Positions 8,596 through 63,732 of a stretch of DNA of 64,000 nt are shown here, one piece after another; within the stretch, counting starts at the first letter, position 1, and each line of letters begins with the position of its first letter. Origin of the DNA: Dehalococcoidia bacterium. Its GTDB lineage: Bacteria; Chloroflexota; Dehalococcoidia; Lucifugimonadales; SHYT01. The DNA is taken from contig SHXZ01000005.1 in NCBI GenBank assembly GCA_009693045.1, forward strand, positions 62,001 to 126,000, read 5' to 3'. A program made the translations under genes and the position numbers. A model generated the notes under the pieces. It was given only the letters and a program-made list of their open reading frames with translations. It searched no databases and was not told the DNA's origin.

Positions 8596-8683
8596 TCTGC
8601 CACCTCCATCGTCCGATGTCTCGCCACCTGTTGGATGCGGCGCGACGGGCGGCGGATACCATGCTACGGCGGCGAGGACAGGG

Positions 8684-8689
8684 TACAAT
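8684..8689 (+). promoter_or_regulatory. -10 element of the RNase P RNA promoter
   Basis: TACAAT ends 7 nt before the predicted RNA 5' end at 8696. No good -35 match was found. Confidence 0.45.
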
Positions 8690-8695
8690 ACTCAT

Positions 8696-9072
8696 GAGGC
8701 CGGTGGGCCGGGTGGCCGCTCCTCGTTCGCGTCAAGCGGGCGGGGAGAGGAAAGTCCGAACTCCTTCAGGCAGGGTGCTGGGTAACGCCCAGGCGGGGTA
8801 ACCCGACGGAAAGTGGCACAGAGACGAAACCGTCCTTCCCGCGAGGGAGGGACAAGGGTGAAAACGGGAGGTAAGAGCTCCCGGCTCCTGGCGGTGACGC
8901 CGGGGGCGGCTAAACCCCACCCGGAGCAAGGCCAAATAGGGGGACGCAAGGCGCCTGAACTGTCCCCGGGTTGGCCGCACGATCCCGATGGCAACATCGG
9001 GACAAGATGGATGGCCACCGTCCTTCCCGCGAGGGAGGGACACAGAATTCGGCTTACAGGCCCACCGGCTTC
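8696..9072 (+). ncRNA. rnpB: RNase P RNA, bacterial type A
   Basis: This is the catalytic RNA that matures tRNA 5' ends. It has the conserved CR-I sequence GAGGAAAGTCCGAACTCC near the 5' end, the GCAAGGCCAAATAGGGG core, AGATGGATGGCC, and the 3' signature ACAGAATTCGGCTTACAGG. The P1 helix pairs GAGGCCGGTGGG at 8696-8707 with CCCACCGGCTTC at 9061-9072, which fixes the ends. An identical 25-nt hairpin sequence (core CCGTCCTTCCCGCGAGGGAG) occurs twice, at 8830-8854 (P12 position) and 9018-9042 (P19-like position). Open frames across this region are spurious. Confidence 0.95.
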
Positions 9073-9194
9073 ATTTCCTCTCGTCTCTCTTGCACGAGTT
9101 ATTCTGGCCACCACCACCGGCTTGCTAGGCGGGCGCCAGTGCTGGCGCCGCTCTTTGTGGGCACAATCCGTGGAACGAGTGCGCAGAGCGCCTC

Positions 9195-9223
9195 TTGAAT
9201 CGTCGCCGTTCTCGGACTATACT
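9195..9223 (+). promoter_or_regulatory. Sigma-70-type promoter
   Basis: TTGAAT (9195-9200), a 17-nt spacer and TATACT (9218-9223) lie 54 nt upstream of the small membrane protein gene. Confidence 0.7.
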
Positions 9224-13094: not shown

Positions 13095-13130
13095 CCCCCA
13101 TCCTAACCTTCCCCCTCAAAGGGGGAAGGG
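13095..13130. repeat. CCCCCATCCTAACCTTCCCCC...GGGGGAAGGG repeat
   Basis: A copy of the second repeat family, in the 63-bp gap between two SDR genes. Confidence 0.65.
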
Positions 13131-14897: not shown

Positions 14898-14925
14898 GTA
14901 GGGGCGAGGCGTGCCTCGCCCCTAC
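14898..14925. repeat. GTAGGGGC-type palindrome, core AGGCGTGCCT
   Basis: 28 bp with the standard outer arms, in the gap before the third SDR. Confidence 0.8.
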
Positions 14926-20392: not shown

Positions 20393-20437
20393 CCTCACCC
20401 CCGACCCCTCTCCAATGATTTGGAGAGGGGAGACGTT
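20393..20437. repeat. CCCCGACCCCTCTCC...GGAGAGGGG intergenic palindrome
   Basis: A CTCTCC-variant of the second repeat family, 3' of the PIG-L gene. Confidence 0.55.
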
Positions 20438-43815: not shown

Positions 43816-43974
43816 CGTAGCGTGCTGATTTCACGGTTTTTCTGGGGACAAGACCAGCGAGGGAGAGGAACCCCCTCTGGTGGCCATGAGATGCCAGCGC
43901 GCCGTGCTGGAGATTCCTCGGTCGTCCCGATTGCGTCGGGACTCCCTCAGAATGGTGCGACGGAGTAGTGTAGC

Positions 43975-62673: not shown

Positions 62674-62756
62674 TGCCGAGGGTGGGATTTGAACCCACAC
62701 GCCCTTGCGGGCTGAGGATTTTAAGTCCTCCGCGTCTGCCATTTCGCCACCCCGGC
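62674..62756 (-). tRNA. tRNA-Leu (anticodon TAA)
   Basis: 83-nt class II tRNA. Acceptor GCCGGGG pairs with CCTCGGC, with D-loop GCGAAATGGCAGACG, anticodon loop with TAA, a variable arm and GGGTTCAAATCCC as T arm. No CCA is encoded. Confidence 0.95.
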
Positions 62757-62829
62757 CAGCAGGCAAGGCCATTGTAGGCAGGGTGTGGAGGTGGAGGCAA
62801 GCCGGACATGGGGAAGGAACGGTGAGAAT

Positions 62830-62873
62830 TGGAGGCGACGGCCGGATTCGAACCGGCGATAGGGGTTTTGCAG
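62830..62873 (-). repeat. Duplicated 3' half of tRNA-Cys (attachment-site scar)
   Basis: 44 bp identical to 63269-63312, covering the tRNA-Cys 3' half from the anticodon loop to the encoded CCA. Duplication of a tRNA 3' end is the mark of integrase-mediated insertion. Confidence 0.75.
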
Positions 62874-63268
62874 TCCCTTCACGCCCGTGTTGACCCGTTC
62901 CAGGCTATAGCGTCCTGTGCCCCGCAGTCAGGTAACGAAGCCCTGGAGCATCATACCACGTGCTAGGGCGTCTTGGCTCGTACCAAGCAATCCGTGACCA
63001 TTCTGTGACCAAAGTATCGCTACGCCTATCAACGTGCGCTGCCCAAACCGTCCTCCGATTGGGCGAGCATCTCCACTTGGCCTATCCTTGTCATGTACGG
63101 TGCCTCTCCGGTGGCTTCGTAGCAAGCCCTGCGAGGCCCGCATGGAACAGGGGATACGCGGGCTGCTTCCGAGCGCCGCGTGACCATTCTGTGACCATTC
63201 AGCGAAACAACGGCCCTGGGCGGTATCAAACCCAGGGCCGTTGTTGTGGTATCGGTGCGGTAAAGAGA
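62874..63268. other. 395-bp segment between the two tRNA-Cys 3' copies
   Basis: No intact gene seen. It carries a 19-bp direct repeat CGTGACCATTCTGTGACCA at 62993-63011 and 63179-63197. A terminator hairpin is at 63206-63245. It may be the remnant of an excised or degraded integrated element. Confidence 0.5.
63206..63245 (-). terminator. Terminator of the tRNA array
   Basis: 15-bp perfect stem AACAACGGCCCTGGG / CCCAGGGCCGTTGTT with a 10-nt loop, 24 bp downstream of tRNA-Cys on the minus strand. The stem ends in TTGTTT on that strand. Confidence 0.7.
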
Positions 63269-63271
63269 TGG

Positions 63272-63344
63272 AGGCGACGGCCGGATTCGAACCGGCGATA
63301 GGGGTTTTGCAGACCCCCGCCTTAGACCACTTGGCTACGTCGCC
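63272..63344 (-). tRNA. tRNA-Cys (anticodon GCA)
   Basis: Acceptor GGCGACG/CGTCGCC, anticodon loop CTGCAAA, T arm CCGGTTCGAATCCGG. Discriminator T and CCA follow, encoded at 63269-63271. Confidence 0.95.
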
Positions 63345-63360
63345 TCGGCAACAGGTATGG

Positions 63361-63444
63361 TGCCCAGGGCGGGATTTGAACCCGCACAGGAGTTACCCCA
63401 CCACCCCCTCGAGATGGCGTGTCTACCAATTCCACCACCTGGGC
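63361..63444 (-). tRNA. tRNA-Leu (anticodon GAG)
   Basis: 84-nt class II tRNA. Acceptor GCCCAGG/CCTGGGC, Leu-type D arm GGTGGAATTGGTAGACACG, anticodon stem CCATC/GGTGG with loop TCGAGGG. Position 33 is C instead of the near-universal U. Confidence 0.88.
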
Positions 63445-63492
63445 GTCGGAGCGGGAGGCAAGCCCCGCAATAGTGCCGCCGAACGTCATTGG

Positions 63493-63566
63493 CAGGAGCG
63501 GAGGGACTTGAACCCCCGACTTCCGGTTTTGGAGACCGGCGCTCTTCCGTGCTGAGCTACGCTCCT
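63493..63566 (-). tRNA. tRNA-Trp (anticodon CCA)
   Basis: Acceptor AGGAGCG/CGCTCCT, anticodon loop CTCCAAA, T arm GGGGGTTCAAGTCCC; discriminator G. Confidence 0.95.
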
Positions 63567-63579
63567 GCGTTGTTGGCCG

Positions 63580-63652
63580 CGCCCCTGGAGGGAATCGAAC
63601 CCCCGACGCCTGCCTTAGGACGGCAGCGCTCTATCCTCTGAGCTACAGGGGC
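63580..63652 (-). tRNA. tRNA-Arg (anticodon CCT)
   Basis: Acceptor GCCCCTG/CAGGGGC, anticodon stem CTGCC/GGCAG with loop GTCCTAA, T arm GGGGGTTCGATTCCC; discriminator G. Confidence 0.93.
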
Positions 63653-63659
63653 AAAATGG

Positions 63660-63732
63660 TGGAGATGAGGGGATTCGAACCCCTGACCTCTGCGATGCGA
63701 ACGCAGCGCTCTACCAGCTGAGCTACATCCCC
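63660..63732 (-). tRNA. tRNA-Ala (anticodon CGC)
   Basis: Acceptor GGGGATG/CATCTCC, anticodon stem CTGCG/CGCAG with loop TTCGCAT, T arm AGGGGTTCGAATCCCC; discriminator A. Confidence 0.95.

Follow-up and report, generated by a model that had tools for sequence, protein, structure and literature searches.

An identical hairpin in helices P12 and P19 of a Dehalococcoidia RNase P RNA, and signs of hairpin copying between arms in related bacteria

RNase P RNA is an essential RNA enzyme. Its gene, rnpB, is the only non-tRNA Rfam match in the window, by which we mean the whole stretch of 64,000 nucleotides of DNA analysed here. The features of the locus are the following:

8700-9072, + strand: rnpB, bacterial class A RNase P RNA (Rfam RF00010, 290.6 bits, model positions 1-367 of 367)
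8718-8748, + strand: region of helix P3, a third fast-evolving hairpin site (Rfam alignment and segmentation)
8829-8854, + strand: copy 1 of an exact 26-nt repeat, whose stem, 8832-8853, is helix P12 by the columns of the Rfam alignment
9017-9042, + strand: copy 2 of the same exact 26-nt repeat, whose stem, 9020-9041, stands at the P19 position

The cmscan match to RNaseP_bact_a is full-length, and its score, compared with a gathering score of 100, places the RNA in class A; a complete RNase P RNA of this class is therefore predicted at 8700-9072. Elsewhere in the window, a cluster of six tRNA genes, for Leu(taa), Cys, Leu(gag), Trp, Arg(cct) and Ala(cgc), lies on the minus strand at 62674-63732.

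A search of positions 8600-9200 revealed a single family of direct repeats with two copies, ACCGTCCTTCCCGCGAGGGAGGGACA, 26 nt long, 100% identical and spaced by 188. An identical stretch of 25 nt had been described at 8830-8854 and 9018-9042 in an earlier note on this DNA; the coordinates were right, but one base short. Copy 1 is aligned to P12 by the Rfam model. Copy 2 follows the 3′ strand of P2 and precedes the conserved ACAGAA of the P4 3′ strand, in unpaired and insert columns, the model having no P19 pairs; by its position we take this helix to be P19, as in RNAs that have one. The name agrees with the available part of a published account (PMC12974513), and the placement of the copies at P12 and a P19-like site, proposed in the earlier note, holds. 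Each copy forms a stem of 9 bp, GTCCTTCCC/GGGAGGGAC, closed by a GCGA loop and containing one U.G wobble. Folded alone, the hairpin has an energy of -16.3 kcal/mol with the same stem for both copies, and both stems are present in the predicted minimum free energy fold of the whole RNA, so the claim that the copies share one small stem was correct. The identity of 26/26 takes in the loop and the wobble. Structural constraint is expected to account for part of it, namely the ACC at the start, the ACA at the end and the base of the stem. When the stem base is stripped, the inner 16 nt of the two hairpins are still identical. The P3 region of this genome, 8718-8748 by Rfam alignment and segmentation, has no copy of the 26-nt repeat.

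Small hairpins found at several places of one genome are well known, among them REPINs and the Rickettsia palindromic elements, and the earlier note had suggested the insertion of such a mobile hairpin and called for a search for further copies. The genome searched is a metagenome-assembled genome of 1.85 Mb, 82.8% complete, from an uncultured member of the Dehalococcoidia (Chloroflexota). At up to 2 mismatches the 20-nt core of the repeat has two copies in it, both in rnpB, and no third copy of the hairpin was found within the same limit. The motif CTTCCCNNNNGGGAG has three matches in the genome, two of them in rnpB, compared with 2 and 1 for the controls. The many genome-wide copies of one hairpin that characterize dispersed palindromes of the REP, MITE or RPE type are thus not seen; unlike these, the present hairpin is confined to rnpB and lies within helix boundaries. 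Insertion of the exact hairpin as a mobile element is not supported, there being no copies outside rnpB at up to 2 mismatches. A looser form of the suggestion may survive, since stems of the type CTTCCC/GGGAAG rank with the most frequent palindromes of the 462.7 kb sampled from this genome. Our search found no literature on dispersed palindromes in the Dehalococcoidia.

The identity of P12 and P19 is missing in both relatives from the same family. In the first (G001) P12 is GCCCCGAGTAATCGGGGT and P19 is GTCCCGACCGTGTCGGGAC; in the second (G002) they are GCCTCGAGCAGTCGGGGC and CTCCTGAGTAATCAGGAG. A scan of genome contigs for rnpB 3′ ends returned four records, two from family relatives and one each from Stahlbacteria and WOR-3; the family records, SHYA01000005.1 and SHYT01000005.1 (Baikal Dehalococcoidia), have the same P12 and P19 as G001 and G002. 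Neither relative has the P12 or the P19 stem of the present genome; both stems changed in between, and the identity therefore arose on the present lineage. The base of the present P12 stem, GTCC/GGAC, is the base of P19 in G001, while the P12 base is CGC in 125 and CGT in 16 of 158 Dehalococcoidia rnpB. The P19-like base found in P12 points to P19 as the donor, and copying was probably from P19 to P12, as judged from two relatives only. P12s of the CGTC type resemble their P19 more closely (median score 8.5 vs. 5.0, p 2e-4).

Similarity between the two helices was then measured across the class. The 100 class-level stretches were chosen among the best 150 or so matches, 330 of the 393 genomes having a match, and of 182 rnpB sequences 181 were aligned with MAFFT (L009 was lost). 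Helices P3, P12, P14, P16/17, P18 and P19 were cut from the alignment, and every P12 was scored against every P19. After removal of the two records from other phyla (Stahlbacteria, WOR-3) and of 21 sequences at 90% identity or more to one that was kept, 158 were used; drawn mainly from the best-scoring Rfam matches, they under-represent weak or divergent rnpB. These sequences share kinship, and the statistics that follow carry no correction for the tree.

The present genome is the only exact case of P12-P19 identity among the 158 non-redundant rnpB. Its score of 23.0 is the highest, followed by L059 (17.5), L067 (16.5), L120 (14.5) and L137 (13.0). Two of 158 within-genome pairs score at least 17.5, compared with none of 24,806 pairs made of a P12 and a P19 from different genomes, for which the maximum is 16.5, reached by two pairs. 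For the inner hairpin stripped of its base the present genome scores 16 and the between-genome maximum is 13. The identity exceeds chance: no between-genome pair of the 24,806 reaches 23.0. Over all 158 rnpB the within-genome mean is 5.80, compared with 4.92 ± 0.12 in a GC-matched permutation (z 7.7), and the excess of the inner hairpin persists when the present genome is excluded (z 5.3). Set against cross pairs with the nearest relative, a genome's own P12-P19 pair wins 87 times, loses 55 times and ties 16 times (n = 158; Wilcoxon p 2e-4). With composition and the nearest relative controlled for, though not the tree, likeness is thus greater inside a genome than across genomes, as copying between helices would have it. 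The earlier note had named independent conservation of the two hairpins in relatives as evidence against its view; instead both stems are replaced in the family, and independence of the two does not hold across the class. In the comparison of related rnpB that it proposed, the identity is absent from the two family relatives, and partial P12-P19 copies occur in several other Dehalococcoidia lineages. Taken together, these sequence comparisons give signs that the copying of hairpins from arm to arm recurs in related bacteria.

The excess is not general among the helices of the RNA. P12 and P19 show none when paired with P14 or P16/17 (z between -0.4 and 1.2). It is found in the P3 pairings, P3-P12 (z 3.9), P3-P19 (z 4.0) and P3-P18 (z 3.7), and at lower values for P18-P19 (z 2.5) and P12-P18 (z 2.3), which indicates that P3 and, weakly, P18 take part. 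Because pairs involving P3 and P18 are also in excess, a genome-wide preference for certain hairpins may account for some of the signal. In other classes of the Chloroflexota, a small sample of 38 rnpB of which 30 had both helices scored, there is no P12-P19 excess (z -0.43).

In 168 pairs of rnpB with cores 90-94% identical, a helix was counted as changed when it fell below 0.6 in a lenient global alignment. The share of changed helices was 0.59 for P3, 0.60 for P12 and 0.55 for P19, compared with 0.03 for P14, 0.08 for P16/17 and 0.18 for P18. By this sequence measure whole hairpins are quickly replaced at P3, P12 and P19, and not at P14 and P16/17. The clearest second case is L067, in which P3, P12 and P19 are all CCTTC..CTGAAGG. 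Outside the P3, P12, P16/17 and P19 hairpins its core is 97% identical to that of L082 and 96% to that of L065; the P19 and P3 hairpins of these two sequences differ from those of L067, as does P12 in L082.

Some further arrangements of these arms may be recorded here. Between L116 and L184 the apical part of P12 is replaced by CCCCGATAGCATCGGGG, the flanking AGCGG and GGG being kept, and the same loop is also found in P19 of L031. Many Dehalococcoidia rnpB (L005, L021, L025, L029, L033, L035, L039, L041, L043, L048, L104, L107, L126 and others) have an extended P19 arm whose internal loop carries a conserved motif, approximately GGAGGAAGYCC ... GRYGTAAACC. In L050 the two-part motif of this arm (GTAAACC and GGGACGAAGGC) lies inside P12 instead, with its strands in the opposite order, as if a module had moved between helices.

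Our best reading is that the present case is one extreme of a class-wide replacement of whole hairpins at P3, P12 and P19, which are more alike within than between genomes. With a probability of about 0.6, we propose that on the present lineage one peripheral hairpin was overwritten by a direct-orientation copy of another, P12 most likely having received the hairpin of P19. From the sequences we infer that such an event took place, which way it went and what part the flanks played in it. Among the origins suggested in the earlier note, duplication or gene conversion between helices is the best supported, by the absence of the identity in both family relatives and by a direct orientation that includes loop and wobble. 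P12 and P19 have in common a 5′ flank ACCG(C/T)C and a 3′ flank GG, and P3 shares CCGC. Copying would take place at the level of DNA, by short-tract gene conversion or by template switching in replication: a nascent strand or a recombination intermediate would anneal through the shared flanks at the wrong hairpin and then copy it. Because a whole hairpin moves, pairing would be kept and the RNA would tolerate the change. Palindromes dispersed in the genome may feed the same sites, and could have supplied the first hairpin. It is possible, and we put it forward tentatively, that in the Dehalococcoidia P3, P12 and P19 of this single-copy ribozyme evolve in concert, by a cassette replacement in which hairpins are exchanged between helices and are also taken from dispersed palindromes, rather than by compensation at one base pair after another. 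According to the available part of the same account, P19 is of variable length and stacks with both P2 and P3; nothing in that part suggests that function would require P12 and P19 to be equal (PMC12974513).

One point against copying is that CTTCCC/GGGAAG palindromes are common in the present genome, so that two captures from this pool are conceivable. P3, P12 and P19 would then be overwritten by short palindromes abundant in the genome, the same type being captured twice, or once and then copied. CTTCCC is one of the top palindrome stems in the sampled part of the present genome, with 11 perfect hairpins in the 462.7 kb, and in the sampled G418 one of the top stems, TCCTTC, is used by its own P12 and P19. 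TCCCGA-N-TCGGGA greatly outnumbers its backward control in about a dozen of the 40 genomes counted, with values in relatives such as 182:0, 106:1, 98:0 and 85:0. For CCTTC-N-GAAGG, counted in ten genomes, the excess over control is clear in G418 (60:6), G338 (43:9) and G001 (50:15) and weaker in G352 (20:14) and G103 (32:19). Among the 34 of the 40 genomes with an aligned rnpB, the 11 with CCCGA/TCGGG stems in P3, P12 or P19 have more genomic TCCCGA palindromes than the other 23 (median 26 vs. 1, p 0.0016). This association is weaker, however, when only rnpB with a GC content of at least 0.60 (p 0.05, 23 genomes) or 0.63 (p 0.02, 22 genomes) are compared, which indicates that GC explains part of it. 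Three genomes with abundant TCCCGA palindromes, G014, G021 and G037, have none in rnpB, and the TCCCGA copies examined in G039 lie in longer dispersed repeats. These points weaken the case for TCCCGA palindromes as the sole source of rnpB hairpins.

For the present hairpin, the pool would have to account for a sequence with no third copy in the 82.8% complete genome, and most dispersed CTTCCC palindromes, many of which are within longer palindromic repeats, pair A-U where rnpB pairs U.G. Orientation bears on the same point. The present hairpins score 16 in direct orientation and 7 as reverse complements, and within genomes the direct-minus-reverse-complement similarity exceeds its permuted value by a modest margin (z 2.7). 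Two captures of one palindrome would show no preference for either orientation, so the direct excess argues against independent captures. One strong case, L027, is better matched in reverse complement and comes from a genome with 182 TCCCGA palindromes; it may be a true double capture. The pool offers no ready explanation for a pair of copies that agree in base, wobble and loop while a third is missing from the searched genome, and we regard capture from it as unlikely to be the origin of the present pair.

Dispersed repeats of several kinds were noted along the way. Those of the window include TCCCGA...TCGGGA, CTTCCC...GGGAAG, GGGCGA...TCGCCC and CTCTCCA...TGGAGAG, some with long shared flanks; palindromic repeats stand at 43924; at 13108, 21388, 23890 and 58809; at 14902 and 52641; and at 20408. 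TCCCGA-N3-7-TCGGGA is at least 15 times as frequent as its backward control in G013, G014, G021, G025, G027, G030, G037 and G039, and most of the copies examined in G039 belong to longer repeats with the flanks GTGGTTCGGAAAT or GATTGCTTCGTCGTCC.

The two hairpins might also have become equal independently, if C-rich 5′ strands, a GTCC/GGAC or GCC/GGY base and a GNRA loop are favoured at both sites. Flanks and stem base are indeed alike at P12 and P19 across the class, and GNRA loops occur at P12 in relatives. Between-genome pairs under the same constraints nevertheless reach at most 16.5, compared with 23 here; the identity extends over the inner 16 nt, wobble included; and the 30 rnpB of other Chloroflexota classes are without the excess. 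We consider such convergence improbable. An assembly artefact, with one hairpin placed by the assembler at the other site, is very hard to credit even for a metagenome-assembled genome, in which short repeats can mislead assembly, given that both flanks are intact and all 367 model positions are matched, that partial copies occur in several independent assemblies, and that a misjoin at a 26-nt repeat should delete or duplicate 188 nt rather than substitute a hairpin.

Copying between helices, the reading we prefer, has partial parallels. The STRR repeats within the RNase P RNA of heterocystous cyanobacteria are short units in tandem; they too are repeated sequences in an arm of this RNA, but the present RNA has one hairpin in duplicate, its copies spaced by 188 nt, and no tandem array. 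In intragenic gene conversion and concerted evolution, repeats become more alike within than between genomes, whereas here the units are a pair of non-adjacent helices in a single RNA, and beyond the hairpin they share almost no homology. Template-switch mutations in RNA genes are DNA copying events that change whole stems while keeping the pairing; those described in the available part of that study are copied as the reverse complement, and in the screen for compensatory changes no more than 8 bp separate source from target (Monttinen and Löytynoja, 2022, PMC8794818). The present change resembles them in altering a whole stem with pairing kept and differs in being a direct copy between two helices 188 nt apart, rather than the reverse complement of a nearby source left by a fold-back switch; as far as the model is set out in that part, it makes reverse-complement copies and so does not cover the direct P12-P19 copy (PMC8794818). 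No report of hairpin exchange between the helices of RNase P RNA was found among titles and the openings of abstracts, a scope outside which most subscription papers lie.

To our knowledge, covariation analysis and RNA phylogenies are built on a general assumption that each helix of an RNA evolves by itself, through substitutions in paired positions. Copying of hairpins from one helix to another would break that independence for the covariation counted in P3, P12 and P19. A single mutation could then alter many base pairs at once, which would offer a testable answer to the question of how stems change without a broken intermediate. The hairpin of a single genome is a small finding; the part worth following is the class-wide, non-independent turnover of P3, P12 and P19.
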